64,000 bases of DNA from Sulfurimonas sp. HSL-1656 (GTDB taxonomy: Bacteria; Campylobacterota; Campylobacteria; Campylobacterales; Sulfurimonadaceae), in the NCBI RefSeq assembly GCF_039645585.1, contig NZ_CP147915.1:1178001-1242000 (forward strand), written 5' to 3'. How positions within the stretch are numbered: the first letter of the stretch is position 1; each line of letters opens with the position of its first letter. The notes beneath the pieces were generated by a model. The model did not search any database and was not told where the DNA came from. It worked only from the letters and a program-made list of their open reading frames with translations. This document shows positions 4,385 through 20,160 of this stretch, in pieces. The translations under genes and the position numbers were made by a program.

Positions 4385-4517
4385 GAGGTTGTCAAACCTC
4401 ACCACTGTCATAATAGACGGCTAGGGTTCCGGCGGGTTACCGTGTCTGGTCCGAGAGCTGTCGACCTCTTGAGTAGGGGTTACACGGAGGGATAAAAGCC
4501 CGGGAGGTTTCAACCTC
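4385..4517 (+). ncRNA. Guanidine-I (ykkC) riboswitch with likely switching stems
   Basis: The three conserved blocks of the class are in order: CTAGGGTTCCG at 4421-4431, GGTCCGAGAG at 4448-4457, and ACACGGAGGGATAAAAGCCC at 4482-4501 followed by GGGAG. They form the aptamer for free guanidinium. The core is flanked by alternating complementary blocks: GAGGTT 4385-4390, AACCTC 4395-4400, GAGGTT 4504-4509 and AACCTC 4512-4517. The inner two can close the aptamer, or each outer pair can form its own hairpin. No U-run terminator lies before the first gene, so control of translation is more likely than attenuation. It heads the whole operon. Confidence 0.93.
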
Positions 4518-4555: not shown

Positions 4556-5626
4556 ATGAAATCTATTTTCAAATCTACCTCAAAACTCTTAGTTGCCGCT
4601 ACACTGGTCATGGGCTTCGGAGCCTCTTCGCTGATGGCGGAAGTCAAAGATAAGTTTCAGGTCTCCTGGACGATCTATGTCGGATGGATGCCGTGGGATT
4701 ATGCCCAGCAAAAAGGGATCATCGACAAATGGGCCAAGAAATACGGCATCGAGATCGAAATGGTCCAGGTCAACGACTACATCGAATCAATCAACCAATA
4801 TACTGCAGGAAAATTTGACGGCTGTCTGATGACAAACATGGACGCCCTTACCATCCCGGCTGCGGGCGGCGTCGACTCTACAGCGGTCATCATGGGTGAC
4901 TACTCCAACGGGAACGACGGTATCCTCCTCAAAAACAAGAAAAACCTGACCGACATCAAAGGCCAGACGGTCAACCTTGTCGAACTCTCTGTCTCGCACT
5001 ACCTGCTGGCACGTGCGCTTGAAACGGTCGGCATGAGCGAAAAAGACGTCAAGGTCCTCAACACTTCCGACGCCGACATGGTCGCGGCATGGGGGACGAA
5101 AGACGTGACTGCGATGACGACTTGGAACCCGCAGCTCAGCGAGATCATGGCCGGCAACAAAGACGCGAACCTCGTTTTCGACTCCAGCAAGACGCCGGGC
5201 GAGATCATCGACATGCTCGTCATCAACACCGAGACCCTTAAAGACAACCCGAAACTCGCCAAAGCGCTGACGGGTGCATGGTTCGAAGTCATGGCACTGA
5301 TGAAGAAGGGCGATGAAGCGGCACTGACGTTCATGGCACAGGCTTCCGGTACGGACCTCGCAGGCTACAAAAGCCAACTTGACTCCACGATGATGTTCTA
5401 TACGCCTTCCGACCTGCTTGCCTTTACGACCAGCGCGGAAATCCCGGCGACAATGAAAAAAGTCAGCGAATTCTCCTTTGAACACGGTATCCTCGGTGAA
5501 GGTGCCCCTGACGCCGAGTTTATCGGTATGGCGTTCCCGGGCGGTAAAACGTTCGGTGATCCGAAAAACATCAAGCTCCGCTTCGACGACACCTTTGTCA
5601 AAATGGCCGCCGAAGGGAAACTGTAA
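4556..5626 (+). CDS. ABC transporter substrate-binding protein, urea-carboxylase-linked (TauA/NrtA-like)
   Basis: Periplasmic binding protein of 356 residues with a signal peptide (about 1-28, cleaved after SSLMA). It belongs to the nitrate/sulfonate/taurine solute-binding superfamily and to the subgroup that accompanies urea/guanidine carboxylases (TIGR03427-type). A landmark stretch is YVGWMPWDYAQQKGI near residue 43. AGGAG lies six bases before the ATG. The guanidine-I riboswitch just upstream and the downstream carboxylase make guanidinium or a guanidino compound the likely ligand rather than urea. First of three transporter genes. Confidence 0.93.
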   Translation: MKSIFKSTSKLLVAATLVMGFGASSLMAEVKDKFQVSWTIYVGWMPWDYAQQKGIIDKWAKKYGIEIEMVQVNDYIESINQYTAGKFDGCLMTNMDALTIPAAGGVDSTAVIMGDYSNGNDGILLKNKKNLTDIKGQTVNLVELSVSHYLLARALETVGMSEKDVKVLNTSDADMVAAWGTKDVTAMTTWNPQLSEIMAGNKDANLVFDSSKTPGEIIDMLVINTETLKDNPKLAKALTGAWFEVMALMKKGDEAALTFMAQASGTDLAGYKSQLDSTMMFYTPSDLLAFTTSAEIPATMKKVSEFSFEHGILGEGAPDAEFIGMAFPGGKTFGDPKNIKLRFDDTFVKMAAEGKL

Positions 5627-5635
5627 GGTCCTCTT

Positions 5636-6460
5636 ATGAAACGATTAATGAACCTCAGACCGTCGAAGCAGTCCCTCTTTTTCCTGGGACTGCTGCCGTT
5701 CGTCCTGGTCGCGCTCCTCTACCTTGGGGCGTCGGAAGTCCGCCTGGCGGCCAATCCGGACGACAAACTGCTGCCCTCCATGAGCAGCTTTGCCGAGGCG
5801 ATCGACCGCATGGCACTCACACCGAGCAAACGGACCGGCGAATACCTCTTCGTCGAGGATACGGTCTCTTCGCTCGAGCGCCTTGGTCTCGGGGTACTCA
5901 TCAGTGCCGTGCTCGCACTGCTGATGGGGATCCCGCTGGGGTTCATTCCCTTCGTTCGTGCAGGACTTTCGCCCTTCGTCGCGGCCTTTTCCATGGTGCC
6001 GCCAATGGCTATTTTGCCCATCTTATTCATCATATTCGGCATGGGTGAGCTGGCTAAAGTAGCACTGATCGTCATCGGGGTGACCCCGCTGATCGTCCGC
6101 GACCTGCAGCAGCGGGTTATGGAGATCCCGGTCGAGCAGCTCATCAAGGCGCAGACCCTGGGCGGAACGTCGTGGAGCATCGTGCTGCGCGTCGTGCTGC
6201 CGCAGATCTTCCCGCGGCTGCTGGATGCGGTGCGTCTCACTATGGGGACGGCGTGGATCTTCCTGATCTCTGCCGAGGCGATTTCGGCCACGGAAGGGCT
6301 GGGGTACCGGATCTTCCTGGTACGCCGCTACCTGTCGATGGATGTGATCCTGCCGTATGTCGCCTGGATCACCTTCCTCGCCTTCTTATTTGATTACCTG
6401 CTCAAGCGGTTCACCTACAAGGTGTTCCCGTGGTACGACGCAGGGAAGGAGCAGTCATGA
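5636..6460 (+). CDS. ABC transporter permease (TauC/SsuC-like)
   Basis: A 274-residue inner-membrane permease of the nitrate/taurine type, with an N-terminal membrane anchor (about residues 15-35), about five further helices from residue 80 on, and the cytoplasmic EAA-like loop around QTLGGTSWSIVLRVVLPQIFPR that docks the ATPase. It lies nine bases after the binding-protein gene, and its TGA overlaps the ATG of the ATPase gene, so the importer is translated as a unit. Confidence 0.93.
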   Translation: MKRLMNLRPSKQSLFFLGLLPFVLVALLYLGASEVRLAANPDDKLLPSMSSFAEAIDRMALTPSKRTGEYLFVEDTVSSLERLGLGVLISAVLALLMGIPLGFIPFVRAGLSPFVAAFSMVPPMAILPILFIIFGMGELAKVALIVIGVTPLIVRDLQQRVMEIPVEQLIKAQTLGGTSWSIVLRVVLPQIFPRLLDAVRLTMGTAWIFLISAEAISATEGLGYRIFLVRRYLSMDVILPYVAWITFLAFLFDYLLKRFTYKVFPWYDAGKEQS

Positions 6461-7221
6461 GCCTCGTCACCGTCAAGAACCTCTGGAAAGAGTACGGCGA
6501 CAACGTCGTGCTGGAGAACATGAGCCTGAACATCGAAGCGGGCGAATTCTGTACGCTCGTCGGACCGTCGGGCTGCGGGAAAACAACTTTTCTGAAGATG
6601 CTGCTGGGGCAGGAAAACCCGACGCGCGGCACCTTCTTGCTCGAAGGGAAACCCTTCCCGGAAGAGCCGGGTGTCGACCGCGGGATCGTCTTCCAGCGCT
6701 ACTCCGTGTTTTCGCACCTGAGCGTGCTCAAAAACGTCATGCTGGGGATCGAGTTTGAAAAAGCCCCGCTGATGGGCCGCCTTTTCGGTCAGGCACGCAA
6801 GGAGGCGGAAGCCGAAGCGATGGCGATGCTCGAAGCCGTCGGCCTCGGCGACGCGGCGCACAAGTACCCCAGCGAACTCTCCGGAGGGATGCAGCAGCGC
6901 CTCTCCATCGCGCAGTCTTTGGTCAAAAAACCGAAGATCCTGCTGCTGGACGAACCGTTCGGCGCCCTCGACCCGGGGATCCGTGCTGATATGCACGCGC
7001 TGATCCTCGACCTGTGGAAGAAGAACAACCTCACCGTCGTCATGGTCACCCATGACCTGCACGAGGGGTTCTACCTCGGCACGCGGCTGCTGGTCTTCGA
7101 CAAAGTCCGCCACGACCCGCAGGCCCCCAACGCCTACGGCGCGCGAATCACCTACGACATCCCTGTCGGGGATACGCGCGACTCCGTGCTCAAAGAGATC
7201 GACCAGACCTTCAAGGTCTGA
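6457..7221 (+). CDS. ABC transporter ATP-binding protein (TauB/SsuB-like)
   Basis: A 254-residue ATPase with Walker A GPSGCGKTT near residue 39, Q-loop FQRYSVF, signature LSGGMQQR, Walker B ILLLDEPFGALD and the switch histidine in VTHDLHE. The start at 6457 (MSLVTVKN) has AGGAG upstream and overlaps the permease stop (ATGA). With the two previous genes it forms a complete importer. The C-terminal 50 residues, after the nucleotide-binding core, are typical of the carboxylase-linked subgroup. Confidence 0.95.
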   Translation: MSLVTVKNLWKEYGDNVVLENMSLNIEAGEFCTLVGPSGCGKTTFLKMLLGQENPTRGTFLLEGKPFPEEPGVDRGIVFQRYSVFSHLSVLKNVMLGIEFEKAPLMGRLFGQARKEAEAEAMAMLEAVGLGDAAHKYPSELSGGMQQRLSIAQSLVKKPKILLLDEPFGALDPGIRADMHALILDLWKKNNLTVVMVTHDLHEGFYLGTRLLVFDKVRHDPQAPNAYGARITYDIPVGDTRDSVLKEIDQTFKV

Positions 7222-7250: not shown

Positions 7251-7293
7251 GCCGCAGGACGACCTGCGGCATCGCGACGTCCGGGACGGCCCG
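7251..7293 (+). ncRNA. Guanidine-II (mini-ykkC) riboswitch, copy 1
   Basis: Two tandem hairpins with the diagnostic ACGR tetraloops. Hairpin 1 has an 8-bp stem, GCCGCAGG 7251-7258, loop ACGA 7259-7262, CCTGCGGC 7263-7270. Hairpin 2 has CGGG 7282-7285, loop ACGG 7286-7289, CCCG 7290-7293. Both loops are flanked by GG and CC, as in the family. An 11-base linker separates them. The ribosome site AAGGAG (7304-7309) follows after ten bases, which fits guanidine-dependent control of translation of the first DUF1989 gene. It sits inside the operon, after the transporter genes. Confidence 0.92.
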
Positions 7294-7314: not shown

Positions 7315-8052
7315 GTGATAACTGAACACGAAAACCTGAAACCAGAATCCATCATCCTCGACGAGGTGCTCCCGGGCGGTGCGCGCTGGTCGAAAATCAT
7401 CAAACACGGTGACAAGCTGCGTATCACGACCAAGGACGGGCTGGGCACGCTCAGCGCGATGTTCTACAATGCCGACAACACCGCGGAGCGTTTCAACTCC
7501 GCCGACACGGTCAAACTTCAGCACAATGCCTACTTCTGCAAAGGGCGGGTCTTCTATTCCGAGCAGGGGCGTGTACTGCTCTCCATTACGGAAGATACGA
7601 CTGACGGTCTCTTCGATGCTATCGGCGGCATCAGCAACCCGCGTATCGTCGCGAAAAACTTCGGTGAGGGTGACTTCGAACATATCCGCAACCGCTACTA
7701 CAAAAGCGACCGTGAAAATTTCCTGGTCGAACTGGGCAAATACGGCATGGGCAAACGCGACATGATCCAGGCGATCAACTTCTTCAGAAGGGTCGACGTC
7801 AAAGAGGGCAACAAGCTGGCACTTTCCGAAAAACGGCCGCAGCCTTTGAGTTACATCGAGCTGCGTGCGGAGATGAACGTCCTGCTTGTGCTCTCCAACA
7901 CGCCGCATGTTATGGAAACAGGAACATACAACCCCAGCGACGTCCAGCTGACGCTGTTCAAAGCGGCCCCGGTCACCGAAGATGATTACTGCATGAATTT
8001 CAGTATCCAGTCCAAACGTGCGTTCCAGAACAACGCACGCTATTTTGCCTGA
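7315..8052 (+). CDS. Carboxyguanidine deiminase subunit, DUF1989 family (first, longer subunit; urea-carboxylase-associated)
   Basis: A 245-residue DUF1989 protein of the urea-carboxylase-associated type; the pair is now known as carboxyguanidine deiminase (CgdA/CgdB), converting carboxyguanidine to allophanate plus ammonia. I start at the GTG at 7315 with AAGGAG five bases upstream; an in-frame GTG at 7249 would read through the riboswitch. Landmarks are MFYNADNTAERFN and LVELGKYGMGKRDM. The metal-site region reads DTTDGLFDAIGG (about residues 94-105), lacking the Cys and His seen in the partner, so this may be the non-catalytic subunit. The letter (A or B) was not assigned. Confidence 0.88.
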   Translation: MITEHENLKPESIILDEVLPGGARWSKIIKHGDKLRITTKDGLGTLSAMFYNADNTAERFNSADTVKLQHNAYFCKGRVFYSEQGRVLLSITEDTTDGLFDAIGGISNPRIVAKNFGEGDFEHIRNRYYKSDRENFLVELGKYGMGKRDMIQAINFFRRVDVKEGNKLALSEKRPQPLSYIELRAEMNVLLVLSNTPHVMETGTYNPSDVQLTLFKAAPVTEDDYCMNFSIQSKRAFQNNARYFA

Positions 8053-8062
8053 GGAGCGCGTG

Positions 8063-8683
8063 ATGAAAAGAGATATCGAAACTGCCGTTTACAACCATAA
8101 ACTGCCGGCGGGCGTGCCGTGGAGCTACGTCGTGAAAAAAGGCCAGACGCTGCGTATCGTCGACCTCGAGGGGTGCCAGGCCGTCGACACGCTTTTCTAC
8201 AATGCCAATGACCATGAAGAGCGCTACTCGGCCAACGATACGATCCGCGAGCAGGGGAGCATCTTCGTCACGACGGGTACCCAGTTGATCTCCACCGACG
8301 ACAACGTCATGATGACGATCACCGACGACACCTGCGGCAACCACGACACCCTGGGCGGCCACTGCAGCGCGGAGAGCAATACCGTGCGCTACGGCCACAA
8401 TACGAAGTACATGCACAGCTGCCGCGACAACTACCTGTTCGAGATCGGCGAGCGCGAGATGGACCCGCGCGACCTCACGAACAACATCAACTTCTTCATG
8501 AACGTGCCGATCGAGGAGAACGGGTTCCTGATCATCGTCGACGGGATCTCCAAGCCCGGTGACTATGTCGATATGAAAGCGGAGATGGACACGCTGGTGC
8601 TGATCTCCAACTGCCCGCAGCTCAACAACCCGTGCAACGCCTTCAACCCGACGCCGATTCAGCTGATCGTCTGGGACGACTAA
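8063..8683 (+). CDS. Carboxyguanidine deiminase subunit, DUF1989 family (second subunit; urea-carboxylase-associated)
   Basis: A 206-residue DUF1989 protein, homologous to the preceding one and presumably forming a heteromer with it. It keeps the putative metal ligands Cys91 and His94 (TCGNHD), Cys101 (GGHCSAESN) and Cys120 (HSCRDN), so it is the better candidate for the catalytic subunit. Start at 8063 (MKRDIE) with GAGGAG six bases upstream. It lies ten bases after the first subunit. Placement between an importer and the carboxylase fits a role in guanidine rather than urea breakdown. Confidence 0.9.
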   Translation: MKRDIETAVYNHKLPAGVPWSYVVKKGQTLRIVDLEGCQAVDTLFYNANDHEERYSANDTIREQGSIFVTTGTQLISTDDNVMMTITDDTCGNHDTLGGHCSAESNTVRYGHNTKYMHSCRDNYLFEIGEREMDPRDLTNNINFFMNVPIEENGFLIIVDGISKPGDYVDMKAEMDTLVLISNCPQLNNPCNAFNPTPIQLIVWDD

Positions 8684-8687
8684 GACG

Positions 8688-9701
8688 ATGAAAAAGACGA
8701 CACGGCTTCTGCGCTTCGAAGATGCATGGCTGCCGAACCTGGCGGCATGGGCCTATATGCTCGGCGCCTACGTGGGCGGTTTCGCCGCCATCATGGCCGA
8801 CGCGCTGTGGCTCAACGCCGCCGGGGTGCTCCTGCTGGCACACGGTATGGTCATCGCTGCCTATTTCATCCACGAATGCGCCCACGATTCGCTCTTCAGG
8901 CTGCCGATCAACAACCACCGTTTCGGAGAGGTATTGCTCTGGATCTGCGGCGCGTCGTACAGTGATTACGAGGCGATACGGATGAAGCATGTCCGCCATC
9001 ACCTGGACCGTGCCGATGTCGTCTCGTTCGATTTCCGCACCCGCCTGCCGCACTACCCGAAACTGCTCAAGACGATCCAGGTGCTGGAGTGGTTCTACAT
9101 TCCCGCCCTCGAGATCATGATGCACGCCCTGGTTATCATTCTGCCGTTTGTCAAGGAGAGCCGCCGCCACCTGCGCCGCCGCGTCGTCACGGTACTCGTG
9201 CTGCGCATCGCTTTCTTTGCCGCACTGGCGTCGATTTCGCCGAAAGTGCTGCTGCTCTACCCGCTGGCGTACATGATCTTCCTGACGGTCATGCGTTTCA
9301 TGGACGTGCACCAGCATACCTACGATGTGCATGAAACACTGGACTTTTCGCGCGAAGCGCAAGTGAAACAGTATGACCGCGCCTTCGAATCGCGCAACAC
9401 CTATTCGAACCTGTTTTCAGAGAAGTACCCGTGGCTGAACCTGCTGGTCCTCAATTTCGCGTACCACAACGTCCACCACGATCAGCAGATCCAGCCGTGG
9501 TACCGGCTGCCGAAACTGCATGCGAAGCTCTACGGCGACGACAGGACGCAGGTCCTGATGTTCTCCGACCTGGCGCGCAGCTACCACCGCTACCGTGTCG
9601 CGCGGGTCCTCAACGGGGACCCGGCCGACCTTGATGTCAAGCATGACGGGGGGCGCTCCTTTATCGGGGTGGACGGCGTCTCGTTCCTGACGGCACACTG
9701 A
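8688..9701 (+). CDS. Membrane fatty-acid-desaturase-fold di-iron protein in guanidine operon
   Basis: A 337-residue integral membrane protein with the three histidine clusters of the desaturase/hydroxylase superfamily: HECAH (62-66), HVRHH (101-105) and HNVHH (260-264), plus DVHQH near 207-211. Membrane helices flank the boxes (about 20-60 and 125-205). Members use O2 at a di-iron site to desaturate or hydroxylate. It starts four bases after the deiminase gene without a clear ribosome site, implying coupling. It is not part of the described guanidine pathway. Hydroxylation of an N-alkylguanidine to release guanidine is a possible role, but a lipid desaturase cannot be excluded. Confidence 0.85.
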   Translation: MKKTTRLLRFEDAWLPNLAAWAYMLGAYVGGFAAIMADALWLNAAGVLLLAHGMVIAAYFIHECAHDSLFRLPINNHRFGEVLLWICGASYSDYEAIRMKHVRHHLDRADVVSFDFRTRLPHYPKLLKTIQVLEWFYIPALEIMMHALVIILPFVKESRRHLRRRVVTVLVLRIAFFAALASISPKVLLLYPLAYMIFLTVMRFMDVHQHTYDVHETLDFSREAQVKQYDRAFESRNTYSNLFSEKYPWLNLLVLNFAYHNVHHDQQIQPWYRLPKLHAKLYGDDRTQVLMFSDLARSYHRYRVARVLNGDPADLDVKHDGGRSFIGVDGVSFLTAH

Positions 9702-9711
9702 AGGAGTCAAC

Positions 9712-10494
9712 ATGACCCAGGTAAAGAAGTTCTGGCCCATTCTCACCGGCACCCACCGCTACGAAAAAACCCTTTCGACACGGGGACATGGGCAGGGAAT
9801 CATCATCACTGCTCCAATTTTAAGCTATTTGATCGAAACAGCCCACGGTCGGATACTGTATGATGTCGGCTGTGACTACTCCAAGATCGTTGACGACGTA
9901 AAACGCAAAAAGTTTTACGAGCACGAAGGCTTCCCTTTCGGGCCGCCGACGATGGAGGAGGAGCAGCGTCTTCCCAACCGCCTGGCCGAACTGGGATTGC
10001 AAGCGGAGGATATCGACGTCGTCTTCTGCGGCCACCTTCACTTTGACCATGCGGGCGGGGTGTGTGAGTTCTGTGGTGCCGAGGTGCACGTACACGAGAA
10101 AGAGCTCGAAGCGGCTAACGCGCTGGCGGACGAAGCCTACTTCAAAGAGGATTTCGACTGCCCGGTCAACTGGCGCGTCTACAAGGGAGAGTATGATCTC
10201 GTCCCCGGTGTGCGCGCCATCGAGACCCCCGGCCATACGGCTGGGCACATGTCGATGATGATCGAACTGCCCAAAGGGCCCCCGATCCTGCTTTGCGGCG
10301 ATGCAGCCGACCTGCAGGAGAATCTCGAACAGGAGATCGTCCCGGGGCTTTGTTGGCAGGATCGTGAAGACATGGCGCTTGACAGTATCAAGAAACTCAA
10401 ACACCTCGCAAAGGAGACGGGGGCCGAACTGTGGCCCAACCACGATATCAAGTTCTTCGAAAGCAAGAACCGCTTTCCGAACTTTTTTAACTGA
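9712..10494 (+). CDS. Metallo-beta-lactamase-fold hydrolase (N-acyl-homoserine-lactonase-like)
   Basis: A 260-residue MBL-fold protein with the di-zinc motif His108-x-His110-x-Asp112-His113 (GHLHFDHAGG), His175 in TPGHTAGH, Asp near 196 in LCGDAAD and a C-terminal His in NHDIKF. The architecture is that of AHL lactonases and related esterases. No signal peptide, so cytoplasmic. AAGGAG precedes the ATG, ten bases after the desaturase-like gene. The substrate is unknown; in this context it may hydrolyse a product of the upstream oxygenase-like protein. Quorum quenching is the textbook alternative but has no support from neighbours. Confidence 0.87.
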   Translation: MTQVKKFWPILTGTHRYEKTLSTRGHGQGIIITAPILSYLIETAHGRILYDVGCDYSKIVDDVKRKKFYEHEGFPFGPPTMEEEQRLPNRLAELGLQAEDIDVVFCGHLHFDHAGGVCEFCGAEVHVHEKELEAANALADEAYFKEDFDCPVNWRVYKGEYDLVPGVRAIETPGHTAGHMSMMIELPKGPPILLCGDAADLQENLEQEIVPGLCWQDREDMALDSIKKLKHLAKETGAELWPNHDIKFFESKNRFPNFFN

Positions 10495-10517: not shown

Positions 10518-10560
10518 CTGTGCTGGACGACCTGCACAGGTATCCGAACGGGACGGCCCG
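10518..10560 (+). ncRNA. Guanidine-II (mini-ykkC) riboswitch, copy 2
   Basis: Two tandem hairpins with ACGR loops, the same design as copy 1. Hairpin 1: CTGTGCTGG 10518-10526, loop ACGA 10527-10530, CCTGCACAG 10531-10539, nine positions with a single U-U mismatch. Hairpin 2: CGGG 10549-10552, loop ACGG 10553-10556, CCCG 10557-10560. The ribosome site GAGGAAGAG (10573-10581) follows. An outer five-base match, CCTCA 10512-10516 with TGAGG 10572-10576, could mask that site when the hairpins are open. The element precedes the carboxylase gene. Confidence 0.9.
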
Positions 10561-10583: not shown

Positions 10584-13500
10584 ATGTTTAAAAAAGTTTT
10601 GATTGCCAATCGTGGTGAGATCGCCTGCCGCGTTATCCGTACTCTCAAACAGATGGGAATCGGCTCCGTCGCCGTCTATACCGGTGCCGATACCGACTCC
10701 CTCCACGTCAGCCTTGCCGACGAAGCCTACTACATCGGTCACGGCGTTGCCAGCGAGAGCTACCTCGACGCTGCCAAGATCCTTGACATTGCGAAGCAGA
10801 GCGGCGCCGAAGCGGTCCACCCCGGTTACGGCTTCCTGAGCGAAAACGCGGCGTTTGCCAGCGCCTGCGAGGCGGCAGGGATCGCCTTCATCGGTCCGCG
10901 CACGGAGCATATGGAGAAGTTCGGTCTCAAGCATACGGCCCGTGCCCTGGCCGAGGCGAACAACGTCCCCCTCCTGCCGGGCTCCTCGCTGCTGGCCGAC
11001 CTGGACGAAGCGAAAAGCGAAGCAGTGCGCATCGGTTACCCGGTCATGCTTAAAAGTACCGCCGGCGGCGGCGGGATCGGGATGCAGCTCTGTTTTGACG
11101 AAGCGCAGCTGCTGAGTGCTTACGACTCCGTCAAGCGCCTCAGCGAAAACAACTTCTCCGACGGCGGGATGTTCCTGGAAAAATACGTCGCACATGCGCG
11201 CCACATCGAAGTACAGGTCTTCGGGGACGGCGAGGGCTTCGTCGCGACGCTGGGCGACCGTGACTGTTCCGTCCAGCGCCGCAACCAGAAGGTGATCGAG
11301 GAGACCCCGGCCCCCGGGATTTCCGACGAAACGCGCCAGGCCCTCTACAAGGCAGCGCAAGAGCTGACGGCCTCCGTATCCTACCGTTCCGCCGGGACGG
11401 TCGAGTTCGTCTACGACACCGACAGCGGCGAGTTCTACTTCCTCGAGGTCAACACCCGCCTGCAGGTCGAGCACGGTATTACCGAAGAGGTGACCGGCGT
11501 CGACCTCGTCGAGTGGATGATCCGCACGGCTGCAGGCGAGAACCCGGCGCTCTACGACTACGCCCATAACCCGCAGGGCCACTCCATCCAGGTTCGCGTC
11601 TACGCCGAAGACCCGATGAAGAACTTCCAGCCCAGCTCCGGCGTGCTGACGAACGTCGCCTTCGCCGAAGGGATCCGCTGCGACACCTTCATTGAAACAG
11701 GGCTCGAAGTCTCCTCCTTCTACGACCCGATGATCGCCAAGCTCATCGTCAAGGGCAACGACCGCAGCGATGCGCTTGCCAAGATCGCCAGCGCCATCGC
11801 GCAGACCCGCATCGACGGGATTGAGACGAACCTGCGCTACCTCGGGGCCATCGTCGCCTCCGAGGTCTTTGAACAGGGCAAACAGACGACGAAGTACCTT
11901 GACGGCTTCACTTTCACACCGAAAAGTATCGACGTTTTGCGCCCGGGAACCCAGACGGCGATCCAGGACTATCCGGGCCGCAGCGGTTACTGGGATATCG
12001 GCGTTCCGCCTTCCGGCCCCTTTGACGGATTCAGTTTCCGCTACGCCAACCGCCTGGTCGGCAACAGCGAAGCGGCGGCGGGCCTGGAGATCGCCATTGC
12101 CGGGCCGACCCTGCGTTTCAACACCGACAGCGTCGTCGCGCTCTGCGGTGCGCAGATCGACGCCTACCTGGACAACGAACCGGTAGGCATGAACGAAGCG
12201 CTGACGGTCAAGGCCGGCAGCGTCCTCAAACTGAAAAAAGTCCAGAACGAGGGCTTCAGAACCTACCTGGCCGTGCGCGGCGGATTCGACGTGCCCGAGT
12301 ACCTCGGCAGCCGCTCGACCTTTACCCTCGGGCAGTTCGGCGGTCATGCCGGACGTACCCTCGTGCCCGGTGACGTCCTGCACATCGACACGATGACCGA
12401 AGGCGACGCGGCCGTAGTCCCGGCCGAGCCGCGCCACGGTTATGAGAACCGCTGGGAGATCGGCGTCCTCTACGGGCCGCACGGTGCCCCGGATTTCTTC
12501 ACCGACGACGATATCGAGACCTTCTTTGCAACGGAGTGGGAGATCCACTACAACTCCAACCGCACCGGCGTGCGCCTGATCGGTCCCAAACCGCAGTGGG
12601 CGCGTACGGACGGCGGCGAAGCGGGACTGCACCCCTCCAACATCCATGACAACGCCTACGCCATCGGCGCCGTCGACTTTACCGGTGACATGCCGGTCAT
12701 CCTCGGCCCCGACGGTCCGAGCCTCGGCGGTTTCGTCTGCCCGGTGACGATCGTCAGCGCCGAACTCTGGAAGATGGGGCAGCTGCGTGCGGGCGACAAG
12801 GTGAAGTTCGTTCCGGTCGAACACGACACGGCGATGGCGATGCTCAAAGCGCAGGAGGAAGCGATTGCAACGCTCTCCACCTACGACGAGCGCGCTTTCC
12901 TTGCACCGAAACCGATCGGTTCGCCGATCCTCTTCGCCGACGAAGCGAAGGGCGACCTGCCGGCGATGGTTATCCGCCAGTCCGGCGACGCGAACCTCCT
13001 CGTCGAGTACGGCGAGATGCAGCTGGACATCGAGCTGCGTTTCCGCGCCCACGTGCTGATGGAGGCGATGAAAGAGGAGGCCTTCGAGGGGGTCACCGAT
13101 ATCACCCCGGGTATCCGCTCGCTGCAGGTGCATTTTGACCCGAAGGTCTGCGACCGCGCGGCGCTCATTGAACGCCTCAAGGAGATCGAGCTGACCCTGC
13201 CGTCCATCGACGACATCGAGGTGCCGGCGCGTGTCGTACACCTGCCGCTCTCCTGGGACGACGAGTCGACCCGCGTCGCCATCGACAAGTACATGAAGAC
13301 GGTCCGTCCCGACGCGCCGTGGTGTCCTTCGAACATCGAGTTCATCCGCCGTATCAATGGCCTGGACTCCATCGACGAGGTCAAGAAGATCGTCTTCGGC
13401 GCCAACTACCTCGTCATGGGGCTTGGCGACGTCTACCTCGGTGCCCCCGTCGCCACACCGCTCGACCCGCGTCACCGCCTGGTCACGACCAAGTACAACC

Positions 13501-14186
13501 CGGCGCGTACCTGGACCCCGGAGAACGCCGTCGGCATCGGCGGTGCGTACATGTGTGTCTACGGGATGGAAGGCCCAGGCGGCTACCAGTTCGTCGGCCG
13601 TACGGTACAGATGTGGAACCGCCACCGCCAGACGGCAGATTTCAAAGAGGGCAAACCGTGGTTGCTGCGCTTCTTTGACCAGATCAAGTTCTACGAAGTG
13701 AGCGCCGAAGCGCTGCACAAGATGCGCGAGGATTTCCCCCGCGGCCGCATGAAGCTCGAAGTCGAAGAGACGACCTTCAGCCTCAAGGCATACAAAACAT
13801 TCCTGAGCGAGAACGAGGCGAGCATCAAAGCCTTTAAAACGACGCAGCAGGCCGCCTTCGACGAAGAGCGCGCCATGTGGGAACGCACGGGTCTGGCAAA
13901 CTTCACCTCTGAGAGCGGCGAAGTGAAAGCGGAGACGATGGAAGTCATCGAGCTGGGCGAACACGACGAAGCGGTCGAGTCCCCGGTACAGGGTAGCCTC
14001 TGGAAGGTGATGGCGAAGCTCGGCGACACGGTCGAGGAGGGCGAAGTGCTCGCCATCGCCGAATCGATGAAGATGGAAGTCGACATCGAGGCCCCCGAAG
14101 CGGGCAAGATCGTCAAGGTGCTCTGCCATGAGGGCGAGAGCGTCCACGCGGGCAAGATGCTCTTCGTCATCGAACCGCAGGCGTAG
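10584..14186 (+). CDS. Guanidine carboxylase (urea-carboxylase family, biotin-dependent)
   Basis: A 1200-residue multidomain enzyme that carboxylates guanidine with bicarbonate and ATP. Order: biotin carboxylase (about 1-450; ATP-grasp [18 protein letters not shown]), carboxyltransferase halves related to KipA and KipI (about 450-760 and 790-1010), and a C-terminal biotin carrier domain with biotinyl Lys1163 in AESMKMEV. At the substrate position that I recall separates the two activities, Asp698 in GAVDFTGD, true urea carboxylases have Asn (Asn1330 of the Kluyveromyces enzyme); the 632-residue offset fits that enzyme's N-terminal hydrolase. The guanidine-II riboswitch upstream agrees. Urea carboxylase is the common database label. 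Confidence 0.93.
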
Positions 14187-14194
14187 GAAGGGCT

Positions 14195-15046
14195 ATGAAA
14201 CTACAGCTTTATAAAACCATGTGGGGGTTCGAAGGGGACTTCGAGACCGCCTGCGCCGAGGCCTCCGCGGCCGGCTTTGCCGGGATCGAAGGTCCCGCCC
14301 CCGAATCGGCGGAGCAGCGTGCCTACTGGAAGACGTGCCTGGAGCAGTATAACCTGCACTATATCGCCGAGGCGGTGACCGGCGGCGGTTATGTACCGCA
14401 GCGCGATCTCGGTGTCGAAGGGCACCTGGACGACCTGAACGCGATCCTCTCCCGCAGTGCAGAACTCTCCCCGCGTTTCGTCACCTGCATCGGCGGGCTG
14501 GACGCCTGGAGCGAAGCGGAAAGCCTGCGCTTTTTCAGCGAGGGGATGAAACTGGCGGAGCGGTACGGAGTGCAGATCAGTTTCGAGACCCACCGCAGCC
14601 GGAGTCTTTTCAACCCCTGGGTAACGCGGCGTATCGTCGAAGCGCTCCCGGAGATCGCACTCACGCTCGATATCAGCCACTGGTGCGTCGTCTGCGAACG
14701 GCAGATGGACAGCGAACCCGAAGTGATCAACGCGATCGTGCCGAACGTGATGCATATCCATGCCCGTGTCGGCTACGACCAGGGGCCGCAGGTACCGCAT
14801 CCTGCGGCGCCCGAGTACGCCTATGCGCTCAAAGCGCACCAGGGGGTCTGGGAACAGGCCTGGGAGAGCCAGCGCCGCCGCGGTTTCGGATTCACAACGA
14901 TGACGCCGGAGTTCGGCCCCGACGGTTACCTCCATATGCTCCCCTTTACCAAGGCACCGGTTGCCGACCTCTGGGAGATCAACCAGTGGATGGGCGAAAC
15001 GGAACGCTTCTACTTTCAGCGTCATAAAATAAAGGCCGTGGCATGA
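14195..15046 (+). CDS. TIM-barrel sugar-phosphate-isomerase/epimerase-like protein
   Basis: A 283-residue protein of the xylose-isomerase-like (AP endonuclease 2) TIM-barrel superfamily. Candidate metal ligands are Glu in SFETHRSR, Asp and His in LDISHW, His in MHIHARVG and Glu in TPEFGP. No signal peptide. It follows the carboxylase by eight bases and overlaps the EamA gene by four (ATGA), so it belongs to the operon. It has no place in the known guanidine pathway. The family includes isomerases, epimerases and hydro-lyases, so the substrate cannot be predicted. Confidence 0.8.
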   Translation: MKLQLYKTMWGFEGDFETACAEASAAGFAGIEGPAPESAEQRAYWKTCLEQYNLHYIAEAVTGGGYVPQRDLGVEGHLDDLNAILSRSAELSPRFVTCIGGLDAWSEAESLRFFSEGMKLAERYGVQISFETHRSRSLFNPWVTRRIVEALPEIALTLDISHWCVVCERQMDSEPEVINAIVPNVMHIHARVGYDQGPQVPHPAAPEYAYALKAHQGVWEQAWESQRRRGFGFTTMTPEFGPDGYLHMLPFTKAPVADLWEINQWMGETERFYFQRHKIKAVA

Positions 15047-15927
15047 GTTCACATCTTCCCGTCGTCGTACTGCTCGGCGCGTCGGTCCTTTGGGGGCTTA
15101 CCTGGCTTCCGCTCAAACAGATCAACGGCATGGGCATCGACGGAATCGCCCTGACGATGGGTGCCTACGGCATCCTGGCGCTCCTGCTGACCCCGGTGCT
15201 CATGGCGCAGTTTGCGCAGTGGCGCGAACACAAGCGGGCCATGGGAATGATCCTGCTTTTCGGCGGGGGTGCGAACCTCGCGTTTACTTATGCCCTGATC
15301 AACGGCGAGGTGATCCGCGTGATGGTGCTTTTCTACCTGCTCCCCGTCTGGGGCGTGCTCGGCGGGAAGTTCTTCCTGCGCGAAGGCGTCGACCTCTGGC
15401 GCTGGCTCGGTGCCGCGCTGGCGGTGACGGGTGCCTTCGTCATTCTCGGCGGGTTTGATGCCCTCGGCGGTGCCCCGTCATGGATCGACCTGATCGCACT
15501 GCTCTCGGGCCTGCTCTTCGCGATGAACAACCTCGTCTTCCGTGCCGCGGCAGAAGTCCCGGTCGCATCGAAGATTACGGTGATGTTCTACGGCTGCCTG
15601 ATCCTGGCCGGTGCACTGCTCGCCCTGGGCGTTGAAGAGCTTCCCTACGACGCGGACTCCGACGCATGGCTTGCCCTCGCGGCCTACGCCGTCCTGTGGC
15701 TGCTGCTGGCCAATATCGGGTCGCAGTGGGGCGTTTCGCATATGGAAGCGGGACGCTCCTCCATCATCATTATCATGGAGCTGATTACCGCCGTTATCTC
15801 CGCGACGCTCATTGCGGGCGAACGGATGGATGCCATGGAGATGATCGGCGGCGTGCTGATCCTTACGGCGGCGCTGATCGAGGCGCTGCGTACGAAAGAG
15901 GACGATCTCCCCGAGACGACGATATAA
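15043..15927 (+). CDS. EamA-family (DMT superfamily) transporter
   Basis: A 294-residue protein with ten predicted membrane helices in two repeats, the RhaT/EamA layout of the drug/metabolite transporter superfamily. That superfamily also contains the small Gdx/SugE guanidinium exporters, so export of guanidinium or of a pathway by-product is one option; uptake of a guanidino compound is another. Translationally coupled to the upstream isomerase-like gene by an ATGA overlap and thirteen bases from the amidase gene. Confidence 0.86.
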   Translation: MSSHLPVVVLLGASVLWGLTWLPLKQINGMGIDGIALTMGAYGILALLLTPVLMAQFAQWREHKRAMGMILLFGGGANLAFTYALINGEVIRVMVLFYLLPVWGVLGGKFFLREGVDLWRWLGAALAVTGAFVILGGFDALGGAPSWIDLIALLSGLLFAMNNLVFRAAAEVPVASKITVMFYGCLILAGALLALGVEELPYDADSDAWLALAAYAVLWLLLANIGSQWGVSHMEAGRSSIIIIMELITAVISATLIAGERMDAMEMIGGVLILTAALIEALRTKEDDLPETTI

Positions 15928-15940
15928 AAAGGAATACATT

Positions 15941-17272
15941 ATGACGATCTCACAACTTTTCAACGACTATAAAAACGGTATAACGACCCCGCGCGACGTG
16001 ATGGCGCAGATCCGTGCGCGGATCGAGGCGCACGCGGAAAACCCTATTTTTATCCATGCGCTGAGCGAGGCGGAGACCGAACCCTACCTCGAACGGCTTG
16101 AAGGGGTCAGCCCGGCATCACTGCCGCTCTACGGCATCCCTTTCGCGATCAAGGACAATATCGACCTCGCCGGTATCCCGACGACGGCCGCCTGTCCGGC
16201 CTACAGCTACGTTCCGGAAGCATCGGCTTTCGTTGTCGAACGGCTGATCGAAGCAGGGGCGATCCCCGTCGGAAAGACGAACCTTGACCAGTTCGCGACG
16301 GGGCTGGTCGGGACCCGTTCACCCTACGGAGCCTGCCGCAACAGCATAGATCCCGCCTACATCTCCGGCGGCTCCAGTTCGGGGAGCGCGATCAGCGTCG
16401 CCCTGGAGATGGCGGCCTTCTCACTGGGAACGGATACGGCGGGATCGGGACGCGTGCCGGCAGCCTTTAACAACCTCGTGGGGGTCAAGCCTTCCAAGGG
16501 GGTTCTGAGCACCTCCGGTGTCGTGCCGGCGTGCCGCAGCCTCGACTGCGTCTCCATCTTCGCCCTCAACACCGATGACGCCAAAGTTGTTTTTGACATC
16601 GCATGTGCCTTTGACGCCGAAGACCCCTACAGCCGCAAGATGCCGGCGACAGCGGATGCAGCGGAAAAAACGATGCGTTTTGCCGTGCCGCTGCCGTCCC
16701 AGCTGAAATTCTTCGGGGACACCGAGGCCGAAGCACTCTTCAACGCCGCGGTGACACGTTTTGAATCGATGGGGTATACGGCGATAGAAACCGATTTCTC
16801 GCCGATGCTCGATGCGGCGAACCTGCTCTATTCGGGCCCCTGGGTCGCCGAACGCTATATCGCGGCAAAGCAGATCATGGACGAGCAGCCCGAAGAGGTG
16901 CTCGATGTGACCCGTTCGATCATCGAGCAGGGCAGGGACAAGAGCGCGGTGGAGTACTTTGCCGCGGAGTACCGTCTCAAAGAGTATAAACGGCAGTCCG
17001 AACTGGCACTCGAGGGGGCAGATTTTGCGCTGACACCGACCACGGGAACCATCTACACCGTTGAAGCGCTCAATGCCGACCCGGTACAGCTGAACACGAA
17101 CCTCGGCTACTACACCAACTTCATGAACCTGCTCGATTTTGCCGCCTACGCGGTACCGGCCGGGTTCCGCCCCAACGGGCTCCCCTTCGGCGTGACGCTC
17201 TTCGGCGATGCCTTTGAAGACCGCCGTCTGATGGAGATCGGTAAAGCGTACGTGGAGGTGTCCCGTGGCTGA
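15941..17272 (+). CDS. atzF: Allophanate hydrolase, amidase part
   Basis: A 443-residue amidase-signature hydrolase. It shows the catalytic Lys in FAIKDNIDLAG and the Ser-cisSer motif in ISGGSSSGSA, with the glycine-rich FSLGTDTAGSGR after it. It would cleave allophanate, the product of carboxyguanidine deimination, to ammonium and CO2 via N-carboxycarbamate. Typical allophanate hydrolases are about 600 residues with a C-terminal domain; here that domain is a separate, overlapping gene. AAGGA precedes the ATG. Confidence 0.92.
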   Translation: MTISQLFNDYKNGITTPRDVMAQIRARIEAHAENPIFIHALSEAETEPYLERLEGVSPASLPLYGIPFAIKDNIDLAGIPTTAACPAYSYVPEASAFVVERLIEAGAIPVGKTNLDQFATGLVGTRSPYGACRNSIDPAYISGGSSSGSAISVALEMAAFSLGTDTAGSGRVPAAFNNLVGVKPSKGVLSTSGVVPACRSLDCVSIFALNTDDAKVVFDIACAFDAEDPYSRKMPATADAAEKTMRFAVPLPSQLKFFGDTEAEALFNAAVTRFESMGYTAIETDFSPMLDAANLLYSGPWVAERYIAAKQIMDEQPEEVLDVTRSIIEQGRDKSAVEYFAAEYRLKEYKRQSELALEGADFALTPTTGTIYTVEALNADPVQLNTNLGYYTNFMNLLDFAAYAVPAGFRPNGLPFGVTLFGDAFEDRRLMEIGKAYVEVSRG

Positions 17273-17663
17273 GACGATCAAGATCGCCGTCTGCGGTGCG
17301 CACATGCGCGGGCTGCCGCTCAACCACCAGCTGACGGAGCTGGACGCGACCTTTGTAAGTGCAACGAAAACGGCTCCGGGGTACCGCCTCTACGACGTGC
17401 CCGAAAAGGTGCCGCCGCGTCCGGGAATGGTGCGCGACAGCACTGTGCAGAGTGCCGTGACACTGGAAGTCTGGTCGATGCCGCTGGAACACTTCGGCGC
17501 TTTTATGATCCAGATCGCTTCGCCGCTCTGTATCGGCACCGTACAGCTCGAAGACGGCAGCACCGTGTACGGGTTTCTGTGCGAGGCCGATGCGCTCAAG
17601 GGAGCCGAGGAGATCACCTCTTTCGGCGGCTGGCGGGAGTACCTCGCTTCGAAGCAGGGCTGA
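17265..17663 (+). CDS. Allophanate hydrolase C-terminal domain as a separate protein
   Basis: A 132-residue protein beginning at a GTG that overlaps the amidase stop by eight bases, with GGAGG upstream. It resembles the C-terminal domain of AtzF-type allophanate hydrolases (landmarks CGAHMRGLPLNHQL, EVWSMPLEHFGAFM and SFGGWREYL). In fused enzymes this domain decarboxylates N-carboxycarbamate. The pair adds up to about 575 residues, the length of one fused enzyme. Last gene of the guanidine operon. Confidence 0.88.
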   Translation: MAETIKIAVCGAHMRGLPLNHQLTELDATFVSATKTAPGYRLYDVPEKVPPRPGMVRDSTVQSAVTLEVWSMPLEHFGAFMIQIASPLCIGTVQLEDGSTVYGFLCEADALKGAEEITSFGGWREYLASKQG

Positions 17664-17836: not shown

Positions 17837-19051
17837 ATGAAAATGACAAAAATGAGTTTGATGGCAGCACTGCTCCTGGGAAGCAGCGCTTTCGCATTTG
17901 ACAACACGGAAGTCGGCGGTGATGCCCGTTTCTTCTACTCTACATTTGACGGTCACGGTGCCGACCTTTTCGGCAAAGAAACCAGCACAGCCGATTTCGG
18001 TGCACGCCTGAGCATTACAACAGATATCGATGAGATCCTCTCCGCAGGCGTCACAGGTTATGCCGTCAGTACGCTTGGCCTTGATAAAGAGATCGCCAAC
18101 AACGTATGGTCCGGTGCACATGTTGATAATGCGACGGGTGATTTCTACACGACGACCGGCTGGATCGGCGAGGCGTGGCTCTCCGCCAAACTGGGTAACA
18201 CCGTTGCGAAAGCGGGACGCATGGAACTCGATACGCCGCTGCTCTTTACCGAAACGTGGGGCATTACAGCGAACAACTTTGAAGCGGCAACGATCACCAA
18301 TACGGATATCCCGGGTACGACACTTGTCGGTGCATGGGTTGCAACCGGAAACGGCTACTCCCAGTTCCTGCTGACGGATACAAAAGGTAAATTCTCAACC
18401 ATCGGCGACCAGGGTGCAATCGCAGTCGGTGCGATCAACAACTCCTTCGAGCCGCTGACGGCACAGGCGTGGTACTACGAACTGCCTGATACGGCAACAG
18501 CATACTGGCTCGAAGCTGACCTCTCCATGGCCGGTGTCGTTGCAGGTCTGCAGTATACGGCGATCAATCCGAACGAACTGATCTCTACGGCTGATGACTC
18601 TACGGCGTTTGCTGCGAAACTGGGTTACGAAGGTGTCGAGAACCTCGGTCTTTATGCTTCTTACTCCACAACGGATAAAGACGGCGATATGTATATCGGC
18701 AACATCGCAACCATGCCTGGCGAAGGCTGGGGTATGCAGTCCAAGCTCTACACGGAAGCATGGTGGAACTTCGGTTACGTCGGTCTGCCGGGTACGGACG
18801 CCTACAACGTGACGGCGACTTACAGCATTCCTGAAATGGCTGATCTCGGACTCTTCTACACGAACATCGACACTGATGGCGGTGCGGGTCTGACCTATTT
18901 CAAAAACACGGTAAGCGAAGTGACTTTCACTGCTGCCAAATCGTTCGGCAAGCTTGATGCACTCTTCGCCTATATCTATGCGGACGATGATGCTATCAAC
19001 GACGGCGACGCCTACAACACGCTGCAGCTCTACCTCGTCTACAACTTCTAA
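17837..19051 (+). CDS. Outer-membrane beta-barrel porin
   Basis: A 404-residue protein with a signal peptide (residues 1-20, cleaved after SSAFA), alternating beta-strand composition rich in Gly, Thr and aromatic residues, and the C-terminal YNF signature of outer-membrane barrels. It resembles the OprD/MOMP-like porins of Campylobacterota. Codons are of the highly expressed type, with AT-richer third bases than neighbours. AAGGA precedes the ATG. Being next to the guanidine operon it could serve that importer, but it has its own upstream region and may be a general porin. Confidence 0.88.
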   Translation: MKMTKMSLMAALLLGSSAFAFDNTEVGGDARFFYSTFDGHGADLFGKETSTADFGARLSITTDIDEILSAGVTGYAVSTLGLDKEIANNVWSGAHVDNATGDFYTTTGWIGEAWLSAKLGNTVAKAGRMELDTPLLFTETWGITANNFEAATITNTDIPGTTLVGAWVATGNGYSQFLLTDTKGKFSTIGDQGAIAVGAINNSFEPLTAQAWYYELPDTATAYWLEADLSMAGVVAGLQYTAINPNELISTADDSTAFAAKLGYEGVENLGLYASYSTTDKDGDMYIGNIATMPGEGWGMQSKLYTEAWWNFGYVGLPGTDAYNVTATYSIPEMADLGLFYTNIDTDGGAGLTYFKNTVSEVTFTAAKSFGKLDALFAYIYADDDAINDGDAYNTLQLYLVYNF

Positions 19052-19093: not shown

Positions 19094-19144
19094 CGCCCGG
19101 GGGCCTTCATTCTCCTCCTCCGGGCGTCCTCGCACACTTTTTTT
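19094..19144 (+). terminator. Intrinsic terminator after porin gene
   Basis: CGCCCGG (19094-19100) pairs with CCGGGCG (19120-19126) around a 19-base pyrimidine-rich loop, followed at 19138-19144 by seven Ts. It would end the porin transcript. A second GC palindrome (GCGCGC-A-GCGCGC) lies just after the stop codon. Confidence 0.6.
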
Positions 19145-19953: not shown

Positions 19954-20160
19954 AGGACGCTCCTTGCCTTGGAACTGTGTGATTTCATTATAGCGCGGCT
20001 GTAACTGCCGTTGTTTAACTGCAGAGACTAGCATCGGCTGTTCAGTCGCTGTTTAACCGCGAAGATGCATAATGAAACATTATCGTGTGAAAAGGGGAAC
20101 AACGCCGCCCGGCCGCGTGCCGGAAGACGCAGCAGAGACAGGCAGCCGCAAGGAGGTCGC

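Follow-up and report, generated by a model that had tools for sequence, protein, structure and literature searches.

Nature's source of guanidine is described as a major gap in the accessible part of a 2025 review (PMC12186494). One described route of its degradation is the guanidine carboxylase pathway, which comprises the carboxylase (gca), the carboxyguanidine deiminase subunits UAAP1 and UAAP2 (CgdAB) and the allophanate hydrolase AtzF. A closely related system is described in the accessible parts of PMC12508155, the only methylguanidine and riboswitch paper that we found on an operon of this kind: in Vreelandella boliviensis, an operon with guanidine-I and guanidine-II riboswitches carries mgdH and mgdL between its gca and atzF genes, and the products of mgdH and mgdL demethylate methylguanidine, cutting this alkylguanidine by hydroxylation followed by enzyme-assisted fragmentation. 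According to the same source, N-(hydroxymethyl)guanidine has a half-life of >1 h, a lyase splits it, and the guanidine-II switch of the operon binds methylguanidine as well as guanidine. Here, we analyze a 64,000-nucleotide stretch of Sulfurimonas sp. HSL-1656 (contig NZ_CP147915.1, positions 1,178,001 to 1,242,000; referred to here as the window), in which a gene for an AP_endonuc_2 TIM barrel (TIM) and a gene for an EamA transporter lie within a guanidine carboxylase operon. In many bacteria, TIM travels with an oxygenase, a lactonase-like metallohydrolase (MBL) and guanidine riboswitches, and so it probably helps to free guanidine, as a nitrogen source for the cell, from a larger guanidino compound. 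In the window, the oxygenase is of the fatty acid desaturase type (FADS), and FADS and MBL, the closest companions of TIM, are encoded upstream of the carboxylase. That these genes are linked to guanidine is almost certain, and the oxygenase is very probably the partner of TIM; the fuller proposal, that FADS, MBL and TIM work together as a module that releases guanidine and is joined to its degradation, we consider an even call.

The carboxylase pathway is complete in the window, with riboswitches and an ABC importer; relative to the described pathway, the window adds FADS, MBL, TIM and EamA, and its allophanate hydrolase is split into two genes. The genes form one tightly packed run (Table 1), in which a guanidine-I riboswitch precedes three importer genes, a guanidine-II riboswitch precedes UAAP1, UAAP2, FADS and MBL, and a second guanidine-II riboswitch precedes the carboxylase, TIM, EamA and the allophanate hydrolase genes. 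TIM and EamA (283 and 294 amino acids) are encoded by plus-strand open reading frames that share the ATGA at 15043 to 15046. Their overlap and their placement between the carboxylase and the allophanate hydrolase, as claimed in the original prediction, are confirmed by the reading frames, by Pfam and TIGRFAM matches and by riboswitch matches at the Rfam gathering score. The operon is assigned to guanidine by an Asp at the selectivity position of the carboxylase, by UAAP1 and UAAP2 scores above cutoff and by the guanidine riboswitches. In an alignment to urea amidolyase, Asp698 of the carboxylase aligns with Asn1330 of the Kluyveromyces lactis urea carboxylase, which we take to be the position that governs selectivity between urea and guanidine. 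Asp marks the guanidine form of the enzyme, according to the accessible part of PMC12186494.

Like mgdH and mgdL, the additional genes of the window are accessories in a gca operon under guanidine-I and guanidine-II control, and they combine an oxygenase with a nonoxygenase protein. Rather than a 2-oxoglutarate (2OG)-dependent enzyme encoded between gca and atzF, however, the oxygenase of the window is a membrane di-iron protein encoded upstream of gca, and MBL and EamA are extra. A search of the window's genome (2.56 Mb, one contig) for a 2OG/Fe(II) dioxygenase as in MgdH gave no PF03171 match. Compared by description only, TIM is a PF01261 barrel, whereas the conserved residues of MgdL lie inside a modeled beta-barrel in which D49 and R51 are needed (PMC12508155, accessible parts). 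Taken by analogy, the module is most likely an unrelated counterpart of MgdH/MgdL.

Relatives within the phylum were sought in 397 genomes of Campylobacterota, with E-value cutoffs of 1e-200 for the carboxylase and 1e-10 for TIM. The carboxylase was present in 24 genomes and TIM in 11, with both present in 10; gca thus accompanied TIM in 10/11 genomes, against 14/386 genomes lacking TIM. The order TIM-EamA-AtzF-AH_C (AH_C being the C-terminal domain of allophanate hydrolase) is kept in 11/11 TIM genomes, and the arrangement is therefore not due to chance. In 10 of these, gca lies directly 5' of TIM; in the eleventh, G350, a contig end cuts TIM. Operon regions were compared in 25 genomes, namely, the window, the 23 other carboxylase genomes and G350. 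Within the stretches fetched, MBL was found in 9/9 TIM operons in which its place was covered and in 0/14 TIM-less gca operons. FADS was present in 5 of the 9 covered TIM operons (the window and L012 to L015), and the four fully covered operons L017 to L020 carry TIM and MBL without it. When the neighborhoods of these four were compared, a few genes were found to be shared outside the operon beside L018 and L019, and none was recognized by eye as an oxygenase. Among these TIM-less operons, EamA occurred in six (G326, G056, G205, G208, G167 and G379) and was absent from the other eight of the 14. On these counts, within the phylum, EamA is separable from TIM, MBL is so far inseparable from it and FADS is optional.

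Outside the phylum, the association was examined in 62 genomes of the gammaproteobacterial order of Thiomicrorhabdus chilensis (G397), with E-value cutoffs of 1e-40 for TIM and FADS, 1e-60 for MBL and 1e-200 for gca. The genomes with TIM, those with FADS and those with MBL are one and the same set of 24 among the 62. Of this set, 23 have gca, which is absent from all 38 remaining genomes (Fisher P = 4e-16, uncorrected for relatedness; such values overstate independence, because the sampled genomes are related). In G451 and G453, TIM and MBL are both present even though they lie >20 kb apart. The 24th genome, G402, is a metagenome-assembled genome (MAG) of Piscirickettsiaceae, in which MBL and TIM share one 524-amino-acid reading frame (L079:9272-10846), either a true fusion or a sequencing error.

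To widen the survey, genome contigs were scanned with a TIM alignment, and the best 80 of 82 loci were compared; some of these loci are short, and L061, L062 and L067 come from genomes also included in the phylum count. TIM is not equally common in unrelated contexts, the situation that would have argued against the original prediction. Among the 45 loci in which TIM is at least 50% identical to that of the window, 41 are accompanied by an enzyme of guanidine degradation. In 27 of these, the locus itself contains carboxylase or UAAP genes, in 3 it contains a guanidine hydrolase and in 11 a carboxylase is encoded elsewhere in the genome (E 1e-150). The remaining 4 of the 45, L067, L068, L079 and L090, show none and are all MAG contigs. 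At 40 to 50% identity (n = 22), a guanidine enzyme is found in the locus in 10 cases and elsewhere in 4. Below 40% (n = 13), none is in the locus, three are elsewhere and 10 loci have none; these loci also have no recognized oxygenase. The usual block in Thiomicrorhabdus, Hydrogenovibrio and other Gammaproteobacteria is FADS-MBL-TIM-EamA, commonly beside guanidine carboxylase genes and often accompanied by a creatininase-family protein, a type III glutamine synthetase, a NikR-like regulator and a second ABC importer. By clustering (L063 to L128), the creatininase-family protein was found in 25/80 loci and the glutamine synthetase in 30/80. The NikR-like nickel regulator stands beside many guanidine carboxylase operons, in 17 loci by clustering (L069:6336-6791 and 16 others).

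Although TIM is constant, the oxygenase beside it is not. In Verrucomicrobia, a Rieske oxygenase lies near TIM in place of FADS, and in other loci the partner is a 2OG oxygenase. In P. sprentiae (L141), TIM overlaps such a gene (15885-16940) by ATGA, and UAAP1-UAAP2-uca-atzF come next, preceded by a guanidine-I riboswitch. On the other strand, an importer gene is under a second guanidine-I riboswitch, with MBL behind it. Among solved chains, 9ovh is closest to this 2OG oxygenase (231 bits). TIM-2OG pairs also occur in Kozakia and Klebsiella, with no gca in the stretches fetched; in Klebsiella (L143:6886-9823), a ureohydrolase (34.5% identical to the guanidine hydrolase of L106, described below), TIM and the 2OG oxygenase stand in a row, with TIM and the oxygenase overlapping by ATGA. 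We mapped oxygenase type onto a quick maximum-likelihood tree of 81 TIM rows (midpoint root, many inner branches weak). It changes at least four times when labels are strict (within 5 kb and at 35% identity, such that L072, L111 and L122 drop out) and five times when they are loose (anywhere in the locus); the four 2OG rows (L081, L141, L142 and L143) fall in three places. In the same tree, 68 of the 81 rows, including that of the window, form one clade with an SH-aLRT support of 100.

The guanidine-consuming enzyme is exchanged as well. Three verrucomicrobial MAGs (L098, L099 and L106) have no carboxylase in the genome at E 1e-150, and in each an arginase-family gene lies upstream of TIM in the same same-strand gene run. 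The nearest PDB entries to the L106 protein are 9fek (531 bits) and 7esr/7oi1 (524 bits); the PDB lists them under the name agmatinase 2, and we take them to be guanidine hydrolases. A urease alpha subunit is encoded 3' of TIM in L106, and two small genes between them resemble other urease subunits by eye. Sll1077 is described as guanidine degrading in the accessible part of PMC8390497. Since a guanidine hydrolase replaces the carboxylase beside TIM, the TIM module goes with guanidine itself rather than with one degradation route. Two cyanobacterial loci, L120 and L121, encode TIM homologues of ∼41% identity 3' of an AtzE-type amidase and an allantoate amidohydrolase-like gene; their genomes have no guanidine carboxylase at E 1e-150, and each has two arginase-family genes elsewhere.

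Riboswitches provide a further link to guanidine. A covariance model (R1) of 16 guanidine-II elements, three of which lie 5' of FADS, gave 60 matches at E ≤1 in 77 sources. The tally given here covers the 30 matches at E ≤0.03 among 54 loci outside the phylum, leaving aside four at E 0.16 to 0.96 and 26 in the window and the phylum. These 30 elements lie directly 5' of the carboxylase (14), FADS (14), UAAP1 (1) and a 2OG oxygenase (1). In L063, the element that precedes FADS spans 8061 to 8107. Counting only genes with at least 150 nucleotides upstream, an element directly precedes 14/28 FADS genes and 14/34 carboxylase genes; by comparison, none was found 5' of TIM (0/53), MBL (0/22), EamA (0/25) or the Rieske oxygenase (0/13). 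Eleven of the 14 FADS elements reach the Rfam gathering score, with L076, L091 and L092 falling short, and the guanidine-II-like element 5' of the 2OG oxygenase of L081 (E 0.026) is unconfirmed at that score. In L092, a guanidine-I riboswitch also precedes the importer-FADS-TIM-UAAP-carboxylase run. At the level of sequence, then, the members of the putative module, their co-occurrence, the interchange of both the oxygenase and the guanidine-consuming enzyme and the riboswitch control can be read directly.

The substrate, the order of reactions and the reaction of TIM are what we infer. An imported N-alkylguanidine, with methylguanidine as the first candidate, would be hydroxylated by the oxygenase at the carbon next to the guanidino nitrogen, and metal-dependent TIM would split the resulting carbinol into guanidine and an aldehyde. 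MBL may handle a lactone, ester or aldehyde-derived by-product. The guanidine would be converted to ammonium and CO2 by the carboxylase, UAAP1/2 and allophanate hydrolase or, in some other bacteria, via guanidine hydrolase, and EamA would most likely export surplus guanidinium. We propose a second enzyme because such a carbinol can be unusually stable, as published for N-(hydroxymethyl)guanidine; TIM, constant beside three exchangeable oxygenases, has the distribution expected of it. For a hydroxylated intermediate as the compound on which TIM acts, we see the chances as balanced, and methylguanidine as the actual substrate is doubtful. It had been claimed that TIM and EamA have no role in guanidine breakdown; for TIM this is probably wrong, as TIM most likely supplies the guanidine.

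The TIM protein itself has a well-predicted fold (pLDDT 96.6). Its best structural matches are Art22 and ketose 3-epimerases, which are AP_endonuc_2 enzymes, with VIA Z scores of about 21 to 22, root-mean-square deviations (rmsd) of about 3.0 and 245 to 253 residues aligned; across the 50 matches listed, VIA Z ranges from 19.5 to 21.9, rmsd from 2.9 to 3.5, aligned length from 237 to 255 residues and identity from 9 to 18%. A PDB sequence search at E 1 gave one match for TIM (E 0.34) and none for FADS or EamA; with a TIM profile, Art22 and AsbF were retrieved at E 2e-4. A literature search on the function of Art22 yielded nothing. TIM matches no NCBIfam family at E 0.001, and hence no named epimerase, dehydratase or isomerase, and it has no PHROGs match. 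E131, D159 and E239 are invariant in 73/73 rows and H187 in 71/73; by comparison with relatives, these four are presumably the metal-site residues. TIM therefore shares both fold and metal-site residues with ketose 3-epimerases, UlaE, IolE, Art22 and other AP_endonuc_2 enzymes, but it differs in lacking an NCBIfam family, in its guanidine-linked context and in three clade-specific residues. The latter, Glu59, Trp105 and Gln196, are invariant in the 61 clade rows and are found in only 3, 3 and 1, respectively, of 12 outside rows. They would fit a cationic substrate, and the combination of a carboxylate and a tryptophan would suit a guanidinium group; the model of MgdL uses Glu, Asp and Trp (PMC12508155, accessible parts).

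FADS has the Pfam family, histidine clusters and predicted fold of FA_desaturase/AlkB-type di-iron oxygenases. Nine histidines (H62, H66, H101, H104, H105, H210, H260, H263 and H264) are invariant in 30 homologues. Its model (pLDDT 91) resembled AlkB on a second structural look (Z 11.3, rmsd 5.0, 252 residues) and also resembled two chains of FtsHi motor complexes (Z 18.8 and 18.6). FADS differs from the AlkB and FA_desaturase enzymes in having no PDB sequence match (with a profile, nothing at E 0.01) and in lying under guanidine-II riboswitches. Compared with plasmids, it matched one record, from Gloeothece (35%), annotated only as fatty acid desaturase. MBL is nearest to N-acyl homoserine lactone (AHL) and 4-pyridoxo lactonases. 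It scores 152.6 bits against the AiiA NCBIfam model NF045699, below the equivalog cutoff of 375. HxHxDH followed by H, D and H is a dinuclear zinc motif, and in MBL the corresponding H108, H110, D112, H113, H175, D197 and H244 are invariant in 20 rows.

Several observations weigh against the proposed scheme. Six TIM genomes of the phylum (G116, G143, G281, G367, G331 and G350) have no FADS or PF03171 2OG oxygenase genome-wide, in a search that did not extend to Rieske or other oxygenases; these genomes thus either rely on a different oxygenase or need none. Likewise, 10 of the 45 loci at ≥50% identity have no recognized oxygenase, some of them lacking flank, and 8 of the 22 at 40 to 50% are without any guanidine enzyme. 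The MBL step is not universal, since MBL accompanies 22/33 FADS loci but 0/16 Rieske loci. Methylguanidine leaves unexplained the creatininase-like, type III glutamine synthetase, PuuE-like, FGE-like and SDR neighbors in other phyla. The FADS model gave no PDB match by Foldseek at E 0.001, such that its likeness to AlkB depends on the second look, and solved AP_endonuc_2 enzymes near TIM act mostly on sugars. The Pfam family and the structural proximity to ketose 3-epimerases are what would speak for TIM as an ordinary sugar isomerase that is present by chance. The neighborhood survey already contradicts that reading, as guanidine enzymes accompany nearly all close homologues and none of the distant ones within the locus, and TIM falls in a separate, fully supported clade. 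A bystander sugar isomerase was thus rejected on gene context and tree, and we consider it highly improbable.

Two other explanations keep a guanidino substrate for TIM. If the substrate were a guanidino acid such as guanidinoacetate or 4-guanidinobutyrate, hydroxylation at the position adjacent to the nitrogen would give a carbinol or gamma-lactone, MBL would open the lactone and TIM would isomerize or split the product to guanidine and an oxo acid. The lactonase relatives of MBL favor this scheme, as do the TIM-2OG clusters of Klebsiella and Kozakia, both of which have genes for a class II aldolase and a glyoxylate/hydroxypyruvate reductase nearby; the Kozakia cluster also has an amino acid ABC transporter and a gene of the arginine deiminase family in its vicinity. 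Those clusters, however, belong to a diverged TIM branch without adjacent gca, and nothing in the window indicates a carboxylate; we regard both the guanidino acid substrate and this route as unlikely. Still less probable, at a slim chance, is a role for TIM and MBL in the repair or recycling of adducts between guanidine and aldehydes, such as hydroxymethylguanidine formed from formaldehyde and guanidine, with FADS optional. The operons L017 to L020, in which TIM and MBL occur without FADS, and the single MBL-TIM frame of L079 would suit such a role, against which stand the joint occurrence of FADS, TIM and MBL in the T. chilensis order and the repeated pairing of TIM with other oxygenases. 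Relative to these alternatives, we favor the release of guanidine from an N-alkylguanidine. A tentative extension would make TIM a new class of guanidino-carbinol lyase on a sugar-epimerase fold, paired with three unrelated oxygenases across several phyla and constituting a widespread, riboswitch-controlled source of guanidine.

EamA requires separate treatment. The original prediction suggested that TIM and EamA may together import and rearrange a guanidino compound, or export surplus guanidinium. A guanidino-compound function remains for TIM, but the two as a functional unit were rejected, because each occurs without the other: EamA lacks TIM in the six gca operons noted above and is present in only 29/80 TIM loci. 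Export of guanidinium proved a good reading of EamA, and we hold it to be somewhat more probable than its alternatives. In the 25-genome comparison, a small multidrug resistance (SMR; PF00893) gene lies in or directly beside the operon in 5/8 EamA-less genomes, between gca and atzF (G361 and G389), directly 3' of AH_C (G345 and G369) or before the importer (G255). The same is true of 1/17 EamA-bearing genomes, G396 (Fisher P = 0.0055, uncorrected for relatedness). This positional exchange, in which genes of the family of Gdx and other SMR exporters occupy the slot of EamA or the ends of the operon, supports guanidinium export by EamA, even though the 294-amino-acid protein of the window matches only PF00892 at E 0.001 and not PF00893. 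Neither gene is in the operon of G234, G247 or G165, and the only SMR matches in the window's genome and in G359 are weak and unlinked (25.1 and 27.9 bits; cutoff, 23.7). The SMR protein of L054 is nearer to EmrE (58 bits) than to 6wk5 (51 bits) and thus cannot be called Gdx on this evidence. Transport in either direction occurs within the EamA family, and EamA might instead import the alkylguanidine substrate or move something else. This is favored by the place of EamA within the FADS-MBL-TIM block in Thiomicrorhabdus and by the occurrence of EamA genes under orphan riboswitches of ykkC subtype 2d (PMC7266159, accessible parts). The dedicated ABC importer, the presence of EamA in TIM-less gca operons and the exchange with SMR genes all argue against it, and we consider it unlikely.

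In the literature covered, from which subscription papers, including the original guanidine-II gene association tables, were largely missing, we found no paper joining EamA or FADS-type genes to guanidine carboxylase operons and none tying a sugar phosphate isomerase to guanidine riboswitches, although one paper (PMC10535843) mentions guanidine, a riboswitch and xylose isomerase; novelty is accordingly unproven. In the accessible mini-ykkC literature, the "desaturase" is NapI, and the accessible parts of PMC7266159 mention no desaturase, lactamase, hydroxylase or isomerase. With an oxygenase-TIM module beside both guanidine-consuming routes and the oxygenase often under guanidine-II control, the gap in the source of guanidine becomes testable as the question of which alkylguanidine is cut. 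Four genes whose present annotations name no more than a family (fatty acid desaturase, lactonase, sugar isomerase and drug/metabolite transporter) also gain suggested functions.

Table 1. Features of the guanidine carboxylase operon of the window (positions within the 64,000-nucleotide stretch)
Feature	Position	Strand	Match
Guanidine-I riboswitch, operon head	4410..4508	+	RF00442, 90.2 bits (gathering 63)
ABC substrate-binding protein, guanidine/urea type	4556..5626	+	TIGR03427, 555.8 bits (cutoff 333.9)
ABC permease	5636..6460	+	PF00528, 57.5 bits
ABC ATPase (start inferred)	6457..7221	+	PF00005, 118.6 bits
Guanidine-II riboswitch, 5' of UAAP1	7251..7293	+	RF01068, 41.2 bits (gathering 32)
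UAAP1, carboxyguanidine deiminase subunit (literature name; start inferred)	7315..8052	+	TIGR03425, 267.5 bits (cutoff 205.95)
UAAP2, carboxyguanidine deiminase subunit (start inferred; scanned as 8018-8683)	8063..8683	+	TIGR03424, 345 bits (cutoff 284.7)
FADS, membrane di-iron oxygenase, FA_desaturase/AlkB fold, putative alkylguanidine hydroxylase	8688..9701	+	PF00487, 118.9 bits
MBL, AiiA/pyridoxolactonase-like metallohydrolase	9712..10494	+	PF00753, 56.5 bits
Guanidine-II riboswitch, 5' of carboxylase	10519..10560	+	RF01068, 35.3 bits (gathering 32)
Guanidine carboxylase, urea_carbox family	10584..14186	+	TIGR02712, 1932 bits; Asp698
TIM, AP_endonuc_2 TIM barrel, putative guanidine-releasing step	14195..15046	+	PF01261, 46.6 bits (gathering 31.1)
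EamA transporter, putative guanidinium exporter	15043..15927	+	PF00892, 80.8 bits (cutoff 28.2)
AtzF, allophanate hydrolase amidase part	15941..17272	+	TIGR02713, 592.5 bits (cutoff 511.05)
AH_C, allophanate hydrolase C-terminal domain, own gene	17265..17663	+	PF21986, 171.8 bits
OprD-like porin, possible outer-membrane entry, 3' of operon	17837..19051	+	PF03573, E 0.0002, 21 bits (under cutoff 25)

The two allophanate hydrolase genes of the window overlap and together span 15941 to 17663; in the 80 TIM loci, by contrast, members of the AtzF cluster are 599 amino acids long at the median, which is the size of a fused protein. A 43% homologue of the OprD-like porin is encoded in G367 (L019:310-1723) directly 3' of its own guanidine-I riboswitch, which suggests that the porin may be a guanidine-induced outer-membrane channel. 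Just past the porin, a LigB-type (PF02900) dioxygenase family protein is encoded on the minus strand at 19144 to 20034.

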